From the NCBI GenBank assembly GCA_002011735.1, contig MTOQ01000050.1, positions 1 to 40,169 of the forward strand: a stretch of DNA of 40,169 nt. Reading direction: 5' to 3'. The translations under genes were made by a program, and so were the position numbers. The DNA comes from Nitrospirae bacterium JdFR-81 (lineage in GTDB: Bacteria; Nitrospirota; Thermodesulfovibrionia; UBA6902). Each line of letters begins with the position of its first letter. The first letter of the stretch is position 1. Positions 1,545 to 28,499 of this stretch are shown here, piece by piece. The notes below the pieces were generated by a model, which searched no databases, had not been told where the DNA came from, and was given only the letters and a program-made list of their open reading frames with translations.

Positions 1545-1602
1545 TGTCTCATGTTTACCATGATACTGAGCACTCATTGCTTATCGCGTGTCACCAGATA
1601 AG

Positions 1603-3495
1603 ATGAGATACGTAATCCTTGGTACAGCAGGCCATATCGATCATGGCAAGAGTGCCCTTGTCAGGGCCATGACAGGCACAGACCCTGACAGGCTGAAGGA
1701 GGAGAAGGAGAGGGGTATAACCATTGATCTTGGGTTTGCAAATATCACCTATCCCGATGGTCTCACAATAGGTATAGTTGATGTCCCTGGGCATGAGAGG
1801 CTTGTGAGGAACATGCTTGCCGGTGCGGGAGGTATAGATATTGTGCTCATGGTCATAGCCGCAGACGAAGGCGTCATGCCCCAGACCAGGGAGCACCTTG
1901 CAATATGTGATCTGCTCGGGGTGAAGAGGGGATTGATAGCAGTGACAAAGTCGGACCTCGTTGATCAGGAATGGCTTGAGCTTGTGATCGATGATGTCAG
2001 GAGGTTTGTGAAGGATACATTTCTTGAGGATGCCGAGGTAATCCCCGTCTCCTCAAAGACAGGTTATAACATCGAGACCCTGAAGGAGGCCCTGAGAGAG
2101 ATGGCGTTACTTGTTGAGCCAAAACCGGCGAATAGTATCTTCAGGCTATATGTTGACAGGGTCTTTACACTCAAGGGTTTTGGTACGGTTGTTACAGGCA
2201 CTGCCATCTCAGGCAGCATAGAGGTGGACTCAGTGGTCGAGATCCTTCCCATGGGGATAATGGCAAAGGTCAGGGGTCTTCAGAGTCACGGGAGGGGGAT
2301 CGAGAGGGCATTCGCAGGCCAGAGGGTGGCGATCAATCTTCAGGGTGTTGAGAAGGACGAGATAAAGAGGGGGGATGTGGTTGCCACACCCCAGAGGCTT
2401 GTGCCTTCATATGCGGTGGACACTTCTGTGAAGATACTGAAGGATGCCCCGATTACAGGGATCAAGAATGGCAGCCTCGTGCATTTCCATACAGGCTCGG
2501 CCGAGCTTACAGCAAGGGTCGTCCTTTATGAGAAGGACGAGCTACAGCCAGGGGACAGCACGTTCTGTCAGTTCAGGTTTAAAAGGCCTGTTGTGGTCAT
2601 GTCAGGAGACAGGTTTATTATAAGGAGATTTTCACCACTTACAACGGTTGGTGGTGGAGAGATACTCGATCCAACACCGATAAAGAGGAGGAGGCAAGAG
2701 GCCCTGGAAAAATTGAAGGGCCTTAATGACGGCGATATTGAACAGAGGTTGAGGATAAAGATCAGGGATTATGGCCTCAATGGTCTCGGTCGTTCAGAGG
2801 TCGAGGGATGGATTAAGGCAGAGTCAGACAGGATAGACAACGCCCTTGGTTCTCTCCTGGAGAAAGGGATGATCTTATCCATAGATGGGAGGCTTGTGTC
2901 AAAGGAGTCCTTTGATGATTTCTCAACAAAGGTGATCTCAATAGTTGAGGGATTTCACAAGGATAACCCGCTAAGGGAGGGGATGCAGAAGGACTCTATC
3001 AGGGCGTATTTTAAGGGGGTAGGGCAGAAATCCTTTGATTCCCTCATCTCACTTGTTGATGGCCTGGTTATTGAAAAGGATATCGTGAGGTTAAGGGATT
3101 TTCAGGTCTCTATTGCCGATGAGAAGAGACAGATTATGGATAGGATATTGAATCTTCTTGAGAAATCGGGGTTTCAACCACCCATGAAATCTGATCTTTC
3201 AAAGATGCTCTCCATTAATGAGAGTGAGCTCACAGAGCTATTGAGACTCATGACATCAGAGGGGAGGTTGGTGAGGATCAATGACGCACTCTATCTTCCA
3301 GGGTCAGCCTACAGGAAGATGCTCTCCCGGCTGAAGGACTTCTTCAGGAAGAAACAGGAGATGACCGTCTCGGAGTTCCGAGATATGCTCAATACAACAA
3401 GGAAGTATGCGCTCCCGTATCTTGAACATCTTGACAGCAATAAGATCACCCTTCGTGTCGGAGATGTGAGGAAGTTACTCCATTTAAAAGAATAG
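1603..3495 (+). CDS. selB: Selenocysteine-specific elongation factor SelB
   Basis: SelB is the GTPase that brings Sec-tRNA(Sec) to the ribosome at UGA codons marked by a SECIS hairpin. I start it at the ATG at 1603 because family members begin [16 protein letters not shown]; an in-frame GTG at 1588 would add five residues. Neither start has a clear ribosome-binding site. The GTPase domain shows G1 (GHIDHGKS), the switch segment ([11 protein letters not shown]), G3 (DVPGH) and G4 (TKSD). Translation-factor beta-barrel domains follow, then a long C-terminal half of winged-helix repeats that in this family bind the SECIS RNA. The 630-residue length is normal. It lies between selA and the unknown gene at 3498, with only 2 nt to the latter, so all three are probably one transcript. 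Confidence 0.95.
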
Positions 3496-3497
3496 AT

Positions 3498-4559
3498 ATG
3501 CTCGATATCGATCATATCGCCTCACAGGTAAAACACAACTGCAATATCTCAGACGCAAGATACTGGGGGCTTTATTCACCATGTGGGCTCCTCCTGAGGT
3601 TGAGGGATCTGTATAAGGCCGAAAGGGGCTTGATGCCATGGGACAGGGTGGACAATGAGGAGATAGGGGAGTGGATAGGCGAAAGGGAGGCCCTGTGGAT
3701 GAGGCTCAGTTCATCAGAGTTTCAGGATATCGAGGTCATGGGCAGGTATTACAGACCCTTTGATGTGAGGGGGATAAATTCCCAGATTTCCGGATACGGC
3801 TATCTGTATGCCGCTGGGTATGGGAACCTTCTAAAGCCATTCTTTATGCTTTCAGAGCTCTCAAAACAACTTAGATGTGGTAGATACACAATATACATAT
3901 GCGGCAGGGAGATCTCACGGGATCTCTCAACATCCCCTGCCATGCTCCAGGGAGATACCATTATTGCAAGGCAGGATGCAATGAGGTTCTTTCTCTGGGG
4001 TAAATTTGAAGAGATCTCAGGCAGTAGATGTGGGAGCGTCCTCTTCCGCGCCTTTAGAGAGTATGGCATCTCAAAAGACTTAGACCATGAGGATCTTGAG
4101 GGGGCCTTTGAGAGACTCACAGACGAGGAGCTTGCCACATATGTGCATCATGAGCTTGGAGAGGCCTCACAGAGGGGGGTGCTTGGAAGGTGGTGGAGGG
4201 AGGTGCTCATGAATATCCCGTATAGCAGGGCTGAGCTGTTTCTGAGGGCTGTTAAGGATGTGCTATCTGACACCTGTAAGAAGGGGATGCTTGCACATAT
4301 TATTCAGAACAAGAAGGAGGGGTCACTGGCCTTTTATGTTGCACTCCACAGTGGCTATAGAAGGGGGATATTCCCTGAGATAATAGAGGCGTATGAGGGC
4401 TTTATGGCCACAGGCGAGTGGGATATTATAGAGAAGGCCAGGGTTGAGGGATATAAAAGGGCAAGGTATTATGTGAAGATACTCAGGGAGTATTTTGATA
4501 GTGGAAGGCTCACACAGAGGGTGATAGAGGATGAATTGATGCCATGGATGGTCAGGTAA
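3498..4559 (+). CDS. Conserved protein of unknown function in the sel cluster
   Basis: The product is a 353-residue soluble protein with no signal peptide or membrane segment. The N-terminal half is rich in aromatic and glycine residues (for example YGYLYAAGYG near 95-104, PFDVRGINSQ), and the C-terminal half is mostly charged and helical. I see no nucleotide-binding or catalytic motif. From memory it resembles an uncharacterised family found beside selA/selB in sulfate-reducing deltaproteobacteria (a Sfum_1244-like family); that recollection needs a database check. It starts 2 nt after the selB stop, which argues for translational coupling, and tRNA-Sec begins 39 bp after its stop. Position alone suggests a role linked to selenium or tRNA-Sec; the function is unknown. 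Confidence 0.85.
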   Translation: MLDIDHIASQVKHNCNISDARYWGLYSPCGLLLRLRDLYKAERGLMPWDRVDNEEIGEWIGEREALWMRLSSSEFQDIEVMGRYYRPFDVRGINSQISGYGYLYAAGYGNLLKPFFMLSELSKQLRCGRYTIYICGREISRDLSTSPAMLQGDTIIARQDAMRFFLWGKFEEISGSRCGSVLFRAFREYGISKDLDHEDLEGAFERLTDEELATYVHHELGEASQRGVLGRWWREVLMNIPYSRAELFLRAVKDVLSDTCKKGMLAHIIQNKKEGSLAFYVALHSGYRRGIFPEIIEAYEGFMATGEWDIIEKARVEGYKRARYYVKILREYFDSGRLTQRVIEDELMPWMVR

Positions 4560-4562
4560 GTG

Positions 4563-4591
4563 TTGCCTTTCGTGGAGAGATTAATTATTAT
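4563..4591 (+). promoter_or_regulatory. Possible promoter of tRNA-Sec
   Basis: TTGCCT at 4563-4568 and TATTAT at 4586-4591 are 17 bp apart. The mature 5' end of tRNA-Sec lies 7 nt after the -10 box, so the primary transcript would have almost no 5' leader. Confidence 0.4.
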
Positions 4592-4598
4592 CAATTGT

Positions 4599-4696
4599 GG
4601 GAGTGTATAGGGTTCTGGTGTCCCTCCCGGACTTCAAATCCGGTGTTTCCCGCCACAAGCGGGAAGGGTGGGTTCGATTCCCACACACTCCCGCCA
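4599..4696 (+). tRNA. selC: tRNA-Sec (anticodon UCA)
   Basis: The acceptor stem has 8 bp (4599-4606 with 4685-4692), followed by discriminator G4693 and an encoded CCA (4694-4696). The anticodon stem is 4627-4631 with 4639-4643; its loop CTTCAAA places TCA at 4634-4636. The long variable arm is a 7-bp hairpin (4647-4653 with 4659-4665). The T arm is GTGGG/CCCAC around TTCGATT (4668-4684). An 8+5-bp acceptor/T-stem stack with a UCA anticodon is diagnostic of bacterial tRNA-Sec. It lies directly downstream of selA-selB-unknown, and its CCA ends one base before the stop codon of the convergent pilR gene. Confidence 0.98.
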
Positions 4697-4697
4697 C

Positions 4698-6098
4698 TCA
4701 TTGTTCAGGCACCTTTTTTATCTCTATACCGTATTTTTTCAGTTTGTGTCTGAATGACCTGAAGGAGAGGTTGAGCAACCTCGCAGCCTCTGTCTTTACG
4801 CCATTGGCCCTTTCAAGCGCCTCAATCAGATACGCCTTCTCCATATCCTCTATTACCCTCTCGAAGTCGATCCCCTCTGACGGGAGGCCTGTCGCTGGTG
4901 ATGGGAGTGGCTGGGCATATTTTGCGGTCTTTGTATATCTTATCTCCTCAGGGAGGTCCTTCACATCCACTATCTCATCCTCACAGAGGAGTGCTATCCT
5001 TTCTATAATGTTCTCCAGCTCCCTTACATTGCCCCTCCAAGGATAACTCTTCAATAGCTCCAGGGCCTCTTCGGTGAACCTCTTCTTGTTTGCGCTGAAT
5101 TTGCCCAGGAAGTGGTTTGCAAGCAGGGGGATGTCTTCCCTGCGTTCCCTTAACGGAGGGACATGTATGGAGAGGACATTAAGCCTGTAATATAGATCCT
5201 CACGGAAGTCACCCCCAGCCACAGCAGATCTGATGTCCCTGTTCGTTGCTGATATTATCCTTACATCAACCTTTATATCAGAGACACCCCCGACCCTTCT
5301 GATCGTCCTGTCCTCGATCACCCTCAATAATTTTGCCTGAAGGCCTGATGGCATCTCGCTTATCTCATCCAGAAAGATCGTTCCTTTGTCAGCTATCTCA
5401 AAGAGCCCCTTCTTGTTTGAGCTTGCCCCAGTGAATGCACCCTTCATATGGCCAAAGAGTTCACTTTCAAGCAGGCCCTCAGGGATGGCTGCACAGTTTA
5501 CAGCCACAAAATGGGAATCCTTTCTGACGCTCAGGTTATGTATCGCCCTTGCCACCAGTTCCTTGCCTGTGCCACTCTCACCGGTGATAAGGACATTTGC
5601 ATCGCTTGATGCGACCTTCCTTATTATGGAGAACAGTTCGAGCATGACAGGGCTCTGGCCTATTATGTTCTCGAGTGATGGAACCTCTACCTGCCTCTTA
5701 AGGATTGATACCTCTTCAGTGAGCCTCTGTCTTTCAAGGGCGTTATTCACCACAAGCCTTATGTCATTCATCCTGAAGGGTTTCTGTATATAATCGAATG
5801 CGCCCAATTTCATGGCCTCCACAGCAGACTCTGCAGTCCCAAAGGCAGTAATAATGACCACCACGGTATCAGGATATGTCTCCTTGATGGTCTTCAGGAG
5901 TTCGATGCCATCGATGTTTGGCATCTTCAGATCCGTGATGACGAGATCAAAGATGTCTTTCTTAAGGGCCTCAATCGCCGCCATGCCATCTCCAGCAGTG
6001 ACCACACTATAACCCTCATTCTTGAGGAAGATCTCGAGGACCTCCCTCATGCTCCTCTCATCATCTACAATGAGTATGTTGCCCTTTGATACCTTCAT
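4698..6098 (-). CDS. pilR: Sigma-54-dependent response regulator, PilR-like
   Basis: This is a 466-residue NtrC-family transcription activator. The receiver domain (about 1-120) has acidic residues Asp12/Asp13, phospho-acceptor Asp56 and Lys106. The AAA+ domain (about 145-380) has Walker A GESGTGKE (173-180), the sigma-54-contacting GAFTGA loop (220-225) and Walker B FLDE (242-245). A Fis-type helix-turn-helix lies at the C-terminus (about 425-460). Its ATG overlaps the stop of the upstream kinase gene by 4 bp (ATGA), so the pair is translationally coupled. Because it ends the pilB-pilT-pilC-kinase cluster, PilR is the best guess; in other species PilR activates pilA through sigma-54. No pilA is adjacent here, and control of other genes such as nitrogen genes cannot be excluded. 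Confidence 0.9.
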   Translation of the reverse strand: MKVSKGNILIVDDERSMREVLEIFLKNEGYSVVTAGDGMAAIEALKKDIFDLVITDLKMPNIDGIELLKTIKETYPDTVVVIITAFGTAESAVEAMKLGAFDYIQKPFRMNDIRLVVNNALERQRLTEEVSILKRQVEVPSLENIIGQSPVMLELFSIIRKVASSDANVLITGESGTGKELVARAIHNLSVRKDSHFVAVNCAAIPEGLLESELFGHMKGAFTGASSNKKGLFEIADKGTIFLDEISEMPSGLQAKLLRVIEDRTIRRVGGVSDIKVDVRIISATNRDIRSAVAGGDFREDLYYRLNVLSIHVPPLRERREDIPLLANHFLGKFSANKKRFTEEALELLKSYPWRGNVRELENIIERIALLCEDEIVDVKDLPEEIRYTKTAKYAQPLPSPATGLPSEGIDFERVIEDMEKAYLIEALERANGVKTEAARLLNLSFRSFRHKLKKYGIEIKKVPEQ

Positions 6099-15539: not shown

Positions 15540-16802
15540 ATGGGCAGGATAATAGCTGATCTACATGTCCATTCAAGGTACAGTCGCGCAACAAGCAGGG
15601 AGATGAATATCCACTCCATGGCCATGTGGGCAAAGAGAAAGGGGATAAGCCTCCTTGGTACAGGCGATTTCACCCATCCCCTGTATTTTGAAGACCTGAG
15701 GTCATCCCTTAAAGAGGCCGAGGATGGCCTTTACACAAGCCCCCTCGAGCCATCCGTCCGCTTTATGCTTACCACCGAGATAAGCAGTATATATTCATAC
15801 AAAGGAAGGATGAGAAGGATACACAACATAGTGATGGCGCCAAGCATCGAGGTTGCCGAGAGGATCAATAATATACTTGAGAAACACGGCAACCTCCTTT
15901 CTGATGGGAGACCGACCTTCGGCACACCTGCCAGAGACCTCATCAAGATGATCCTCGACATATCACCTGAGTGCCTCTTTGTCCCTGCCCATGCATGGAC
16001 ACCATGGTTCTCCATCTTTGGGAGCAATTCGGGGTTCGACTCCATAGAGGAGTGTTTTGGTGAATACTCAAGATATATCTACGCCATTGAGACCGGTTTG
16101 TCTTCGGATCCCGAGATGAACTGGCGGCTTTCTGCACTTGACAGGGTAACCCTGATCTCAAATTCTGATGCACATTCACCCAATAAGATAGGAAGGGAGG
16201 CGAATGTGTTTGACTGTGACATGAGCTACCATGAGATCATGGATGTTATAAGGAACAAGGATAGAGATCGTTTCCTCTATACCATTGAGTTCTTTCCAGA
16301 GGAGGGGAAGTATCATTTTGATGGTCACAGGATGTGTAATGTGCTGTTCTCGCCCTCGGAGACAAAGAGGCATAAGGGCATATGTCCTGTCTGTAAAAAG
16401 CCACTGACCGTTGGTGTGATGAACAGGGTTGAAGAGCTTGCAGACAGGGAGGAGGGCTTTGTGCCTCATGGGGCGATACCATCAAAACACCTGATCCCCC
16501 TTGAAGAGATAATAGCAGATGCCTTCAAGGCCGGTGTTAACACAGCCAAGGTAAGGAAGGAGTATGAAAGGCTTACATCATCATACACAGAGTTTGAGAT
16601 ACTGCTTGACCTCCCAGAGGATGACCTCTACAGGAGCATGGACAGGAGGATAGCAGAGGGCATCATCAGGGTGAGAAAGGGAGAGATAAGGATCACCCCT
16701 GGATATGACGGTGTATACGGGAAGATAGACATATTCCACGAAGCACCTGTAGAAGAGGACACATCCCCCACTGATGAACCACAGCAGACCAGCCTCTTCT
16801 AA
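15540..16802 (+). CDS. Endonuclease Q-like PHP-domain DNA repair nuclease with clamp-binding tail
   Basis: A 420-residue protein of the EndoQ family (PHP metallohydrolase plus zinc-finger domain). EndoQ cuts DNA 5' to deaminated bases such as uracil and hypoxanthine. The metal-binding start is DLHVHSRYSRAT (His9, His11), followed by GTGDFTHP, FVPAHAWTPWFS, GFDSIEE, ETGLSSDPEMNWRLS and SNSDAHSP, all in EndoQ order. A C-terminal segment FFPEEGKYHFDGHRMCN and ICPVCKKPLT forms the zinc-finger region, followed by RVEELADREEGF. The last five residues, QTSLF (416-420), fit the bacterial beta-clamp-binding pentapeptide (QxxLF type). The archaeal enzyme works with PCNA, so a clamp tail is functionally sensible. 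The start ATG follows AAAAGGGG, and the gene lies 35 bp after the GNAT gene. The stop overlaps the convergent fabF-like gene by a few bases. Confidence 0.85.
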   Translation: MGRIIADLHVHSRYSRATSREMNIHSMAMWAKRKGISLLGTGDFTHPLYFEDLRSSLKEAEDGLYTSPLEPSVRFMLTTEISSIYSYKGRMRRIHNIVMAPSIEVAERINNILEKHGNLLSDGRPTFGTPARDLIKMILDISPECLFVPAHAWTPWFSIFGSNSGFDSIEECFGEYSRYIYAIETGLSSDPEMNWRLSALDRVTLISNSDAHSPNKIGREANVFDCDMSYHEIMDVIRNKDRDRFLYTIEFFPEEGKYHFDGHRMCNVLFSPSETKRHKGICPVCKKPLTVGVMNRVEELADREEGFVPHGAIPSKHLIPLEEIIADAFKAGVNTAKVRKEYERLTSSYTEFEILLDLPEDDLYRSMDRRIAEGIIRVRKGEIRITPGYDGVYGKIDIFHEAPVEEDTSPTDEPQQTSLF

Positions 16803-19914: not shown

Positions 19915-21261
19915 ATGAAAAGGATCGCTGGATTGACGGTCTCGTTTTTAGTGTTACTGATTCCCTTGATGGCCTTTGCCGATGCGCCAGCTCCCACGGT
20001 CTCAGGCAATGCCGAGGCAGTCAAGACCGTGCAGAGACACGCGGATTTTCTCTGGACCCTGATCGCAGCCTTCCTGGTCTTCTTCATGCAGGCAGGTTTT
20101 GCGATGGTTGAGGCAGGCTTCACGAGGTCAAAGAATGCTGTAAACATAGTGATGAAAAACCTGATGGATATGTCAATGGGTGCCATCTCTTACTGGGCAG
20201 TTGGTTTTGCAATTATGTTTGGAATCACAAAGACCGGCTGGTTTGGAACCACCGGCTTCTTTCCGAGTGACTTCGCACAGGATAAGGACCCGTGGATACT
20301 TGCATTCTGGATGTTTCAGGTGGTCTTTGCTGCCACTGCCGCCACCATTGTCTCAGGTGCCATGGCAGAGCGGACAAAGTTTGTGGCCTATCTCCTGTAC
20401 TCCGTGGTGATAAGTGCCATCATTTATCCTGTCTTTGGTTCATGGGCATGGGGGAGTCTATACAGGGGCTCGGGCTGGCTTGAGAACCTTGGATTCATTG
20501 ACTTTGCAGGCTCAACGGTTGTGCACTCCGTTGGTGGATGGGCAGCCCTATCCGGAGCCATGGTATTGGGGCCCATGATAGGAAAATATGTGGATGGTAG
20601 GGTTCAGGCGATACCCGGACACAACATCACCCTTGCAGCACTTGGCGTATTTATACTCTGGTTTGGATGGTATGGATTCAATCCTGGCAGCACGACGGCT
20701 GCAACAACAGATATCGCCATTATCGCCGTTAATACCACACTTGCTGCCGCCTCAGGTGCAGTGGGTGCCATGCTCATGTCATGGTTCATGTTCAAAAAGC
20801 CTGATGCATCGATGACCCTTAATGGTGTGCTTGCAGGGCTGGTCGGTATCACCGCTGGCTGTGCCACTGTCCTTCCAGGAGGCTCTGTGATAATAGGGTT
20901 GATAGCCGGCGTCATCGTTGTGCTTTCTGTGGTCTTTATCGATCAGGTCCTCAGGGTGGATGATCCTGTTGGTGCTGTCTCTGTGCATGGTGTCTGTGGT
21001 GCATGGGGGACACTCGCAGCAGGACTCTTCAATGCGGAGGGCGTAACACTGAGGATCATAGGGGTCCAGCTGCTTGGGATATCGGCCTGTTTCCTCTGGG
21101 TGTTCCCTACCACCTACATACTCTTCAGGGTCATCAGGGCCACCATCGGCCTCAGGATCAGCAGAGAGGAGGAGCTCGAAGGGCTGGATGTGGGAGAGCA
21201 CGGTATAGAGGCATACCCTGATTTCCAGATCCATCCAGAGGCAAGAGGCATACAGGCTTGA
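19915..21261 (+). CDS. amtB: Ammonium transporter Amt (first copy)
   Basis: A 448-residue Amt/Rh channel protein of the inner membrane that conducts ammonium. A signal peptide (about 1-24) is followed by about eleven membrane helices. The twin histidines of the pore are His204 (STVVHSVGGW) and His358 (VSVHGVCGAWG); FMQAGFAMVEAGFTRSKN is the usual first-helix signature. A strong ribosome-binding site (TGGAGG) lies before the ATG at 19915. The C-terminal tail (GLDVGEHGIEAYPDF) is the P-II-interacting region. It is co-transcribed with the porin from the sigma-54 promoter at 19134. A second, distinct Amt gene follows 500 bp later. Confidence 0.96.
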   Translation: MKRIAGLTVSFLVLLIPLMAFADAPAPTVSGNAEAVKTVQRHADFLWTLIAAFLVFFMQAGFAMVEAGFTRSKNAVNIVMKNLMDMSMGAISYWAVGFAIMFGITKTGWFGTTGFFPSDFAQDKDPWILAFWMFQVVFAATAATIVSGAMAERTKFVAYLLYSVVISAIIYPVFGSWAWGSLYRGSGWLENLGFIDFAGSTVVHSVGGWAALSGAMVLGPMIGKYVDGRVQAIPGHNITLAALGVFILWFGWYGFNPGSTTAATTDIAIIAVNTTLAAASGAVGAMLMSWFMFKKPDASMTLNGVLAGLVGITAGCATVLPGGSVIIGLIAGVIVVLSVVFIDQVLRVDDPVGAVSVHGVCGAWGTLAAGLFNAEGVTLRIIGVQLLGISACFLWVFPTTYILFRVIRATIGLRISREEELEGLDVGEHGIEAYPDFQIHPEARGIQA

Positions 21262-21424: not shown

Positions 21425-21763
21425 ATGAAGATGATATCAGCCGTGATCAAACACTTCCGCCTCGATGAAGTCAGGGAGGCCCTGACAGGCGCTGGGGTGC
21501 AGGGAATGACGATCATCGAGGTGAAGGGTTTTGGAAGGCAGAAGGGGCACCTTGAGGTCTACAGGGGTGTTGAATATGAGGTGAGGTTCCTGCCGAAGAT
21601 AAAGATAGAGGTTGCCGTGCCTGATGAGAAGGCCGACGAGGTGATAAATGCGATTCAGGAGAGCGCAAGGACGGGGGAGATAGGGGATGGCAAGATATTC
21701 GTCTATGAGCTTAAGGACGTGGTAAGGATAAGGACAGGTGAAAGGGGGAAGGAGGCGATATGA
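21425..21763 (+). CDS. glnB: Nitrogen regulatory protein P-II (first copy)
   Basis: A 112-residue P-II protein, the standard length. The uridylylation site Tyr51 is present in the T-loop ([13 protein letters not shown]), and the start MKMISAVIKHFRLDEVREAL and the C-terminal [13 protein letters not shown] segment are canonical. P-II proteins read 2-oxoglutarate and ATP/ADP and control Amt channels and GlnE. Its stop overlaps the start of the second Amt gene by 4 bp (ATGA), the arrangement usual for a GlnK-type partner of AmtB, so the name glnB or glnK is arbitrary. It is preceded by a sigma-54 promoter and three enhancer palindromes. Confidence 0.95.
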   Translation: MKMISAVIKHFRLDEVREALTGAGVQGMTIIEVKGFGRQKGHLEVYRGVEYEVRFLPKIKIEVAVPDEKADEVINAIQESARTGEIGDGKIFVYELKDVVRIRTGERGKEAI

Positions 21764-23082
21764 TAACCACATACAATAGGTACTGGACGCTCTGGGGCTG
21801 TGTTGGTGCCATCCTTGTCATGCTTTTTATGGCCACGCCTGCCTCTGCTGAAACCGCCTCGGCAGATCCTGGTGATACCGCGTGGGTACTCACCTCAACG
21901 GCACTGGTGCTCTTCATGACACTACCAGGGCTTGCACTCTTTTATGGTGGACTGGTAAGGAGCAAGAATGTCCTGTCCATCCTGATCCAGTGCTTTGCCA
22001 TTGCCGGTATCGTCACACTCCTGTGGCTTGTTGTTGGTTATAGCATAGCCTTCTCCAGCGGTAATGCCTTCTTCGGTGGCCTATCAAAGTTCCTCTTTGC
22101 CGGTATAAAGGAGGAGACCCTGAGCGGGGGTATCCCTGAATCGCTCTTTGCCATATTCCAGATGACCTTTGCAATCATAACTCCGGCACTCATTATCGGT
22201 GGTTTTGCGGAGAGGATGAAGTTTTCCGCCGTATGCCTGTTTTCTGTCATATGGCTGCTCTTGGTCTATGCGCCGATAACCCACTGGGTCTGGGGTGGTG
22301 GATGGCTCCAGGAGAAGGGCCTCCTTGATTTTGCAGGCGGGACGGTTGTCCATATAACAGCAGGGGTGGCCTCGCTTGTGGCCGCCCTGGTGATGGGGCC
22401 ACGCAGGAGCTTCCCTGACTCTCTCACCCCACCCCATAACATGACGCTCACCATTACAGGCGCGGGGATGCTCTGGGTGGGCTGGTTCGGTTTTAATGGT
22501 GGCAGTGCCCTTGCCGCCAATGGTGATGCTGCAATGGCTGTGCTTGTCACCCACATATCTGCCGCAGCAGGGGCAATGACATGGATGTTTTATGAATGGA
22601 TCAAGTTCGGCAAGCCCACGGTCCTTGGAACGGTCACAGGGATGGTTGCAGGCCTCGGGACCATTACACCGGCATCAGGCTTTGTAGGGCCTGCAGGTGC
22701 CCTTGTGATAGGGATCTCTGCTGGGTTCATCTGCCTTAACGCCGTGCAGTTTATCAAACAGGTACTCAGGATCGATGACTCACTGGACGTATTCCCTGTC
22801 CACGGTGTTGGAGGGATGCTCGGGACGATACTGACAGGTGTATTTGCATCAACAGGCCTTGGCATCTTCAGTGGTCAGGGATTTGCAGAGGGCATCAATA
22901 GCATATCAGGACAGGTCACTGTTCAGTTGATAGGTGTGGTGGCCACGGTGCTTTATACCGCCATTGCTACTTTCATTATCCTGAAGATTGTTGGTATAAT
23001 TGCTGGTCTCAGGGTCAGTCCGGAGGTGGAGACCACAGGTGTGGATATTGATCAGCACGGTGAGGAAGGCTACCTGATGTGA
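21760..23082 (+). CDS. amtB: Ammonium transporter Amt (second copy)
   Basis: A 440-residue Amt channel with a signal peptide cut near ASA-ET (residue 30). Pore histidines are His198 (GTVVHITAGV) and His348 (FPVHGVGGM). It differs clearly from the first Amt, for example MTLPGLALFYGGLVRSKN in the first helix in place of FMQAGFAMVEAGFTRSKN, so the two are not a recent duplication. The ribosome-binding site GAAGGAGG lies inside glnB, and the start overlaps the glnB stop. The C-terminal tail ends VDIDQHGEEGYLM. It probably forms the channel gated by the co-encoded P-II. Confidence 0.96.
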   Translation: MITTYNRYWTLWGCVGAILVMLFMATPASAETASADPGDTAWVLTSTALVLFMTLPGLALFYGGLVRSKNVLSILIQCFAIAGIVTLLWLVVGYSIAFSSGNAFFGGLSKFLFAGIKEETLSGGIPESLFAIFQMTFAIITPALIIGGFAERMKFSAVCLFSVIWLLLVYAPITHWVWGGGWLQEKGLLDFAGGTVVHITAGVASLVAALVMGPRRSFPDSLTPPHNMTLTITGAGMLWVGWFGFNGGSALAANGDAAMAVLVTHISAAAGAMTWMFYEWIKFGKPTVLGTVTGMVAGLGTITPASGFVGPAGALVIGISAGFICLNAVQFIKQVLRIDDSLDVFPVHGVGGMLGTILTGVFASTGLGIFSGQGFAEGINSISGQVTVQLIGVVATVLYTAIATFIILKIVGIIAGLRVSPEVETTGVDIDQHGEEGYLM

Positions 23083-23798: not shown

Positions 23799-25211
23799 AT
23801 GACACCGAAGGAAGTCTTGGCCTTTGCCAAGGAGAACAATGTCGTGATGGTGGACTTCAAGTTCATCGACTTCCCTGGGGTCTGGCAGCACTTCTCGATC
23901 CCCATTGAGGAGCTCAAGGAAGAGACCTTTGAAGAGGGGGTAGGGTTTGACGGATCGTCCATAAGGGGATGGCAGGCGATCCATGCCTCTGATATGCTGA
24001 TCATCCCTGATCCAGAGACAGCAATCCTTGATCCGTTCAGGAAATATCCAACCCTGAGCCTGATATGCAACATCGTTGATCCCATCACAAAAGAACCCTA
24101 CACAAGGGACCCCCGGTACATAGCACAGAAGGCAGAGCAGTACCTGAAGTCAACAGGCATCGGAGATACGGCCTATTTCGGTCCTGAGGCAGAGTTCTTT
24201 ATCTTTGATGACATAAGGTTTGACCAGAACGCACACAGTGGTTATTACTTCATCGATTCCATCGAGGGCATATGGAACTCGGGCAGAGAGGAGAACCCGA
24301 ATCTTGGTTACAAACCAAGGCACAAAGAGGGTTATTTCCCGGTGCCACCAACCGATAGCCTCGAGGACATGAGGACCGAGATGGTCACCATCATGCAGAG
24401 GTGTGGCATCCAGGTGGAGGCACAGCATCATGAGGTGGCCACAGCAGGGCAGGGCGAGATCGACATGAGGTATTCCCCGCTTGTGAAGATGGCGGACAAC
24501 CTCATGCTCTTTAAGTATATAGTAAAGAATGTGGCACGCAGGCACGGAAAGACGGCCACATTTATGCCGAAGCCTGTATTTGAGGACAATGGCTCAGGGA
24601 TGCATACACACCAGAGCATCTGGAAGAATGGAGAGCCTGTCTTTGCAGGCAATGGCTATGCAGGCCTCAGCGAGACGGCCCTCTACTATATCGGTGGGAT
24701 ACTCAAACACGCAAGGGCACTCGCGGCACTGACGAATCCGACGACCAATTCATACAAGAGGCTTGTGCCAGGTTTTGAGGCGCCTGTGAACCTCGCATAT
24801 TCTGCAAGGAATCGCTCTGCAGCAGTAAGGATACCGATGTACTCACCATCCCCGAAGGCGAAGAGGGTGGAGGTGAGGTTCCCTGACCCCTCATGTAATC
24901 CATACCTTGCCTTTGCCGCTATGCTCATGGCAGGCCTTGATGGGATAGAGAACAAGATCGACCCAGGAGAGGCCATGGACAAGGATCTGTATGACCTTCC
25001 ACCAGAAGAGCTTGCAAAGATACCCCAGATAGTGGGCAGCCTTGATGAGGCCCTGGACAGCCTTGAGAAGGATCATGAGTTCCTGCTCAAGGGCAATGTG
25101 TTTACTGAGGATGCCCTCAGGACATGGATTGAGTACAAGAGGAGTAACGAGGTGGATGCGCTCAGGTTGAGGCCACATCCATACGAGTTCTTCCTGTATT
25201 TTGATATCTAA
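23799..25211 (+). CDS. glnA: Glutamine synthetase type I
   Basis: A 470-residue GSI that makes glutamine from glutamate, ammonia and ATP as a dodecamer. Seen are the N-terminal beta-grasp part ([23 protein letters not shown]), the metal-ligand segment [10 protein letters not shown], the ATP-binding [16 protein letters not shown] and the glutamate-binding [13 protein letters not shown] and [10 protein letters not shown]. The adenylylation site Tyr398 ([11 protein letters not shown]) is conserved, matching the presence of glnE nearby, so this is the covalently regulated beta subtype. A strong ribosome-binding site (AAAGGAGG) precedes the ATG. A hairpin terminator follows the stop. Confidence 0.98.

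Positions 25212-25270: not shown

Positions 25271-28499
<3,229 letters not shown>

Follow-up and report, generated by a model that had tools for sequence, protein, structure and literature searches.

Two enzyme families and one group of selenium genes are the closest described systems to the locus reported here. PolE (DUF6421) is an Fe/pterin-dependent L-isoleucine desaturase that is structurally homologous to dipeptidyl peptidase III (DPP III). Its iron motif is HE/DxxHx(21-23)E, implying a spacing of 22-24, and the zinc motif of DPP III is HExxGH (all as described in the available part of PMC12614342). On the selenium side, the available part of PMC2432076 describes the SirA-like, HP1 and HP2 genes as selenium accessory genes belonging to the third selenium trait, recognised via their adjacency to sel genes and their co-occurrence. 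The gene analysed here was recognised in the same way, with the difference that SirA-like, HP1 and HP2 are linked to selD and not to selA-selB-selC; the likeness is one of descriptions in PMC2432076 rather than of compared proteins.

A DUF6866 gene between selB and selC

The window (the whole stretch of 40,169 nucleotides that was analysed, contig MTOQ01000050.1 of Nitrospirae bacterium JdFR-81) carries the following sel block near its start:

135-1544, + strand, selA (469 aa): ORF, first gene of the sel block
1588-3495, + strand, selB (635 aa): Sec-specific elongation factor, TIGR00475
3498-4559, + strand, DUF6866/Sfum_1244 protein (353 aa), predicted metalloenzyme: ORF, family profiles, conservation, AlphaFold models
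4599-4696, + strand, selC: tRNA-Sec (anticodon tca), ARAGORN

All four genes lie on the + strand, with gaps of 43 bp between selA and selB, 2 bp between selB and the DUF6866 ORF (ATG at 3498, stop ending at 4559), and 39 bp between this ORF and selC. The TIGR00475 match to selB (G000:C16:1612-3474, E 4.9e-109) is above the cut-off, while selA was named from its sequence and context rather than from a family scan, and matches the SelA cluster found upstream of selB in related loci. An earlier note, made from the sequence alone, had placed an unknown gene of 353 codons at exactly this position with the same two gaps on either side, which our analysis confirms. The same note spoke of an otherwise complete Sec cluster: selA, selB and selC are indeed present, but "complete" is too loose a word, as the genes identified do not include selD. 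A promoter-like match occupies the gap before selC (4563-4591, 9/12; four such sites in the region versus 1.6 expected), so that selC may be transcribed separately. A GTG ORF of 149 aa (4597-5046) runs through the tRNA-Sec and is most likely spurious.

The 353-aa protein is a full-length match to the NCBIfam family NF045620 (Sfum_1244 family), scoring 358.3 bits where the cut-off is 150, with residues 5-334 aligned on positions 2-324 of the 339 in the profile. It also matches Pfam DUF6866_N (175.6 bits, 7e-52) and DUF6866_C (159.5 bits, 1e-46), for which the cut-off is 27. Given these matches, the ORF is real and not a chance reading frame. Sfum_1244 (NF045620) corresponds to DUF6866_N plus DUF6866_C, and the window protein is a member without any difference. 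In a Pfam scan at E <= 10, only the DUF6866 families matched the protein, and the family is single-copy in the 2.05-Mb genome that holds the window. Sfum_1244/DUF6866 is a known but uncharacterised family without an assigned function: a literature search found no paper naming either, and the available parts of the selenium papers PMC2432076 and PMC13188914 do not mention them. The gene should be seen as belonging to this family and not as a missing Sec factor.

Linkage to sel genes

The gene neighbourhood was compared among numbered genomes and among 80 named loci (L051-L130) plus the window. The two sets overlap (for example, L053 is G207 and L056 is G158) and their counts are kept separate. 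The window's order is represented by 47 genomes, of which 16 have a family match. In 14 of these 16, spread over two taxonomic families, the gene lies beside selB or selC: 12 have selB directly upstream and two have only selC nearby. The remaining positives are G619, whose neighbourhood is unreadable, and G610, which carries a truncated copy without selB in the 1.3 kb upstream. Between selB and the DUF6866 gene, the gap varies from -4 to 119 bp. What flanks the selA-selB-x block differs among these genomes, except for a CxxCxxCC gene found ahead of selA in several of them. As the block was kept while its surroundings changed, the arrangement speaks for co-expression of selA, selB and the DUF6866 gene within this taxonomic order. 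The CxxCxxCC gene (PF03692, putative zinc-/iron-chelating) was seen upstream of selA in L051, L055, L059, L126 and L035, the assignment coming from a scan of the L126 copy.

This linkage has to be weighed against a serious, if somewhat doubtful, explanation, namely that the gene encodes an enzyme from the ordinary metabolism of anaerobes, unrelated to selenium, and once landed behind selB and was inherited there, its nesting among Sec genomes reflecting shared lineages and habitat. Several observations fit such a history. Of the 80 named loci and the window, ten have selB as their upstream neighbour, and all ten fall within one clade of 12 loci; two other members of this clade (L056 and L058) have no selB upstream and carry selC 1.4 kb downstream. 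Ten of the 12 loci are long enough for the tree and form a single group (SH-aLRT 100), which means that the linkage arose once. Outside the clade, a sel gene was found in the flanks of only one of 69 loci (L067, with selA 2.2 kb upstream), the flanks of some named loci being cut by contig ends. In L057 and L116, selA is not readable.

The slot behind selB is not reserved for this gene either, although the earlier note had described it as locked between selB and tRNA-Sec. In two family-negative relatives, one from the same taxonomic family (L174) and one from a sister family of the same order (L179), selB runs directly into selC. In a third, also from the same taxonomic family (L175:6596-7690, genome G231), selB and tRNA-Sec are separated by a CorA transporter gene (1.5e-73), which shows that the slot accepts different genes; in other relatives it holds what we identified by eye as a glycosyltransferase-like or rpsB-like gene. 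What an ordinary enzyme inherited by accident explains less easily is that the gene has stayed next to selB or selC in nearly all positive genomes of the order while protein identity in the sel-linked clade fell to 48-89% and the outer flanks came to differ.

Outside the sel-linked clade, the family gene is found in contexts unrelated to selenium genes. Two recurrent neighbours there, a histidinol dehydrogenase gene (hisD) downstream (21 of 81 loci) and a truA-like gene, named by eye, upstream (18 of 81 loci), were rejected as functional clues, as the truA-like gene is divergent in most cases and hisD is often separated from the family gene by a convergent gene. A quick tree with midpoint rooting places the sel-linked clade on the Desulfobacterota side (SH-aLRT 98), apart from the other Nitrospirota, a placement that may reflect an old horizontal transfer. 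The same tree groups four bins labelled Euryarchaeota, Actinomycetota or Deferribacteres (L062, L068, L119 and L051) with Nitrospirota or Desulfobacterota, and it looks as though these labels are wrong or the contigs misbinned.

Distribution among Sec-decoding genomes

We then consider how the family is distributed relative to two Sec markers, SelB and tRNA-Sec. Only tRNA-Sec candidates of at least 59 bits were counted, and the ten of these checked by ARAGORN were all tRNA-Sec. We discarded the gathering score of the Rfam tRNA-Sec model as a marker, since at E <= 1e-8 it also gives hits in the control genomes of Caulobacter, Thermus and Thermotoga, in which Sec is not expected.

Sec markers (SelB and/or tRNA-Sec) are present in 108 of the 110 family-positive genomes examined. 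In the window's phylum (295 genomes), the family is found in 63 genomes, SelB in 127 and both in 57 (Fisher's exact p = 2e-18, in a test that ignores kinship). Five SelB-negative carriers (G142, G034, G041, G073 and G084) have an ARAGORN-confirmed tRNA-Sec of 61-76 bits, and one (G265, 89% complete, 1.3 Mb) has neither marker, its best tRNA-Sec candidate having been rejected as a tRNA-Ser. In the phylum of Desulfoferrobacter (297 genomes), 31 genomes carry the family, the cultured Desulfoferrobacter suflitae DRH4 among them; 29 are with SelB and the other two (G300 and G310) with tRNA-Sec. Both genomes of a two-genome phylum have a family match (one of them partial and below the cut-off) as well as tRNA-Sec. 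Finally, SelB or tRNA-Sec was found in 13 of 14 further positive genomes behind the named loci, G600 (a 1.1-Mb bin) carrying the family without either. Both marker-less carriers are small draft assemblies. The earlier note had held that a family common in genomes without Sec machinery would speak against its proposal; this did not occur, as such genomes are two of 110, albeit in lineages that nearly all use Sec.

This last point limits what the co-occurrence can say. In the window's class (117 of the 295 genomes), Sec markers are found in at least 114 genomes (109 with SelB, five via tRNA-Sec), and in the taxonomic family f23 the gene is present in 12 of 14 genomes, while Sec is present in all 14 (11 with SelB, three via tRNA-Sec). 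As almost all genomes in the carrier lineages use Sec, informative contrasts are few and co-occurrence supports a selenium link only modestly; an inherited enzyme with no selenium role would show much the same nesting. One contrast points the other way: in the other 164 genomes of the phylum, Sec was counted in at least eight, and the single family-positive genome (G034) is one with tRNA-Sec.

The reverse does not hold. Of the SelB-positive genomes, 57 of 127 in the window's phylum and 29 of 263 in the phylum of Desulfoferrobacter carry the family, which is thus absent from 70 and 234 of them, respectively; the E. coli control likewise has SelB and lacks the family. As SelB-positive genomes mostly lack it, Sec decoding does not require the gene. 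The family does not behave like core Sec machinery, being far from present in nearly all Sec genomes.

Conserved residues and predicted fold

Conservation was assessed on 116 non-identical sequences of the family, which came from Nitrospirota, Desulfobacterota and a small number of other bins, after removal of rows shorter than 320 aa and of rows identical over residues 30-300. N14, C15, C29, W59, W67, Y104, G107, H218, E219 and D254 never vary. E222, E64 and R250 are each conserved in 115 members, E138 in 114 and E246 in 107, and D258 in 114, the other two having Glu. Two helices carry conserved patterns, H-E-x-[GA]-E (H218-E219-x-[GA]-E222, 115/116) and K-D-x(3)-D. These patterns, along with the curated full-length family match, overturn the earlier statement that the protein has no recognisable motif. 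The distance from E222 to E246 is 21-25 residues, most commonly 24 (69/116), and thus near the 22-24 that follow from the PolE motif. The protein looks like an enzyme, as N14, C15, C29, H218, E219 and D254 are invariant and E222 varies once; judging from the alignment, the invariance of Cys, His, Glu and Asp residues around both helices would suggest an active site, for which a metal site is the simplest reading. An in-frame stop was found in the family only in G610 (one TGA); we rejected it as a Sec codon at C15 or C29, as this copy is truncated and rearranged.

Structure prediction, suggested in the earlier note as a check, gave two confident AlphaFold models: one for the window protein (30 rows; pLDDT 94.7, pTM 0.92) and one for a Desulfobacteraceae homologue, L110, which is 37% identical to it (33 rows; pLDDT 94.6, pTM 0.92). 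A Foldseek search of the PDB with the window-protein model returned no match at E <= 1e-3. With a second structural aligner, the only whole-chain matches of both models were DPP III and PolE. The DPP III matches were 5zum for the window model (Z 12.0, rmsd 5.2, 274 residues aligned) and 5yfd for the L110 model (Z 8.7, rmsd 5.2, 286 aligned), and the PolE matches 9j33 (Z 9.4, rmsd 5.1, 265 aligned) and 9j2r (Z 9.4, rmsd 5.9, 270 aligned), respectively; all four scores may be noise, as the protein is partly helical and, according to the aligner's own note, helical folds can give Z values of up to about 13 by noise. The first unrelated rows scored Z 6.3 (window model) and Z 6.2 (L110 model) and covered about 100 residues. 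Sequence searches of the PDB gave a best E of 0.99 with the single sequence and 0.3 with a profile, the latter a vinculin match that we judged to be due to chance. Neither the Pfam scan nor the PDB profile search produced a sequence-profile match of the family to DPP III or PolE. Taken from the models, the protein is probably a DPP III/PolE-like metalloenzyme with a peptidase-like fold.

The resemblance could instead reflect a generic helical arrangement, with invariant residues that are structural or bind another protein, and the Foldseek result and the low Z scores would agree with a non-enzymatic protein of this kind. We consider this improbable, as two separate models have whole-chain matches to two related enzyme families only, and the polar residues that never vary in 116 divergent members are typical of an active site.

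Likeness to PolE extends to length (353 versus about 370 residues), a possible end-to-end fold match (Z 9.0-9.4), and an HE pair followed by a putative ligand four residues past the His and a Glu 21-25 residues further on. H218, E222 and E246 may therefore correspond to the PolE ligands, by spacing and chain order. There are also differences: the second His of the PolE motif is Glu in the family (HExxE, with E222 in 115/116), which departs from HE/DxxHx(21-23)E; E246 is present in 107 of 116 members, whereas D254 is invariant; and the Pfam scan of the window protein shows no DUF6421 match. Moreover, PolE needs O2, while hosts of DUF6866 are, from their lineages, probably anaerobes; if so, O2- and pterin-dependent chemistry like that of PolE is unlikely. 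With DPP III (M49), the window protein may share the whole-chain structure, which its model resembles (Z 8-12), and it has a metal-type HE motif in the helical half, but it is half the size, has HExxE in place of HExxGH, and lacks a PF03571 (Peptidase_M49) match at E <= 10. PF03571 itself was found in none of the 297 genomes of one carrier phylum (E <= 1e-20). The DUF6866 family may thus work like DPP III/PolE enzymes, yet it carries the motif of neither.

Proposed role

The explanation that we favour, although we give it no better than an equal chance of being right, is that the gene is an optional, clade-specific member of the sel operon encoding an accessory metalloenzyme of the DPP III/PolE type, most plausibly one that handles selenium, and not a core Sec factor. 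The product would be a soluble, single-copy, metal-dependent enzyme, whose gene would have become, in the window's order, the third protein-coding member of a selA-selB-x(-selC) block. H218, E222 and D254 (or E246) would hold one metal ion, with E219 acting as the general base, and the substrate would be either an amino acid or a peptide bound at its amino end, by analogy with DPP III and PolE. The accessory role, lying outside Sec-tRNA synthesis and UGA decoding, would most plausibly be the handling of a selenium amino acid, or the maturation or turnover of selenoproteins in anaerobes. What the analysis shows is the family identity, the residue conservation, the resemblance of the predicted fold, the clade-level linkage and the nesting of nearly all carriers among Sec genomes; the metal, chemistry, substrate and selenium role are inferred. 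The protein may plausibly act in selenium biology, with perhaps an even chance that its role concerns selenium at all.

A more specific version can be put forward, namely a new selenium accessory enzyme with a DPP III/PolE fold, an HExxE...D site and two invariant cysteines, whose substrate would be a seleno-amino acid or a selenoprotein's amino end and which only Sec decoders would retain; in this detailed form the proposal is rather unlikely to be correct. That the gene is instead a component of Sec-tRNA synthesis, of selenium delivery to SelA or of Sec decoding, as the earlier note supposed from its place between selB and selC, is very improbable, as the family is missing from most SelB-positive genomes, from E. 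coli and from close relatives with selB directly before selC, and the enzymes that its predicted fold resembles are a peptidase and an amino-acid oxidase, neither of which acts on tRNA; what survives of that supposition is the Sec association itself, seen in the marker counts of the carriers and in the linkage within the order.

What makes the DUF6866 gene a testable candidate of interest is that nearly all of its carriers decode Sec. If the selenium link is true, the optional enzyme that we favour would add to bacterial Sec usage an accessory protein whose fold is not known to us from that pathway. It would also be, after PolE, the second case that departs from the peptidase plan of DPP III. 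If the link is false, the locus would provide a clean example that a position between selB and selC is insufficient to assign a gene to the Sec machinery.

Elsewhere in the window, an ORF of 420 aa (15540-16802) has no Pfam match at E <= 1e-5. Two neighbouring ammonium transporter genes (19915-21261 and 21760-23082) lie ahead of a glutamine synthetase gene (23799-25211) and, together with a GlnE/GlnD-type gene (25692-28499), make up a nitrogen-assimilation block.
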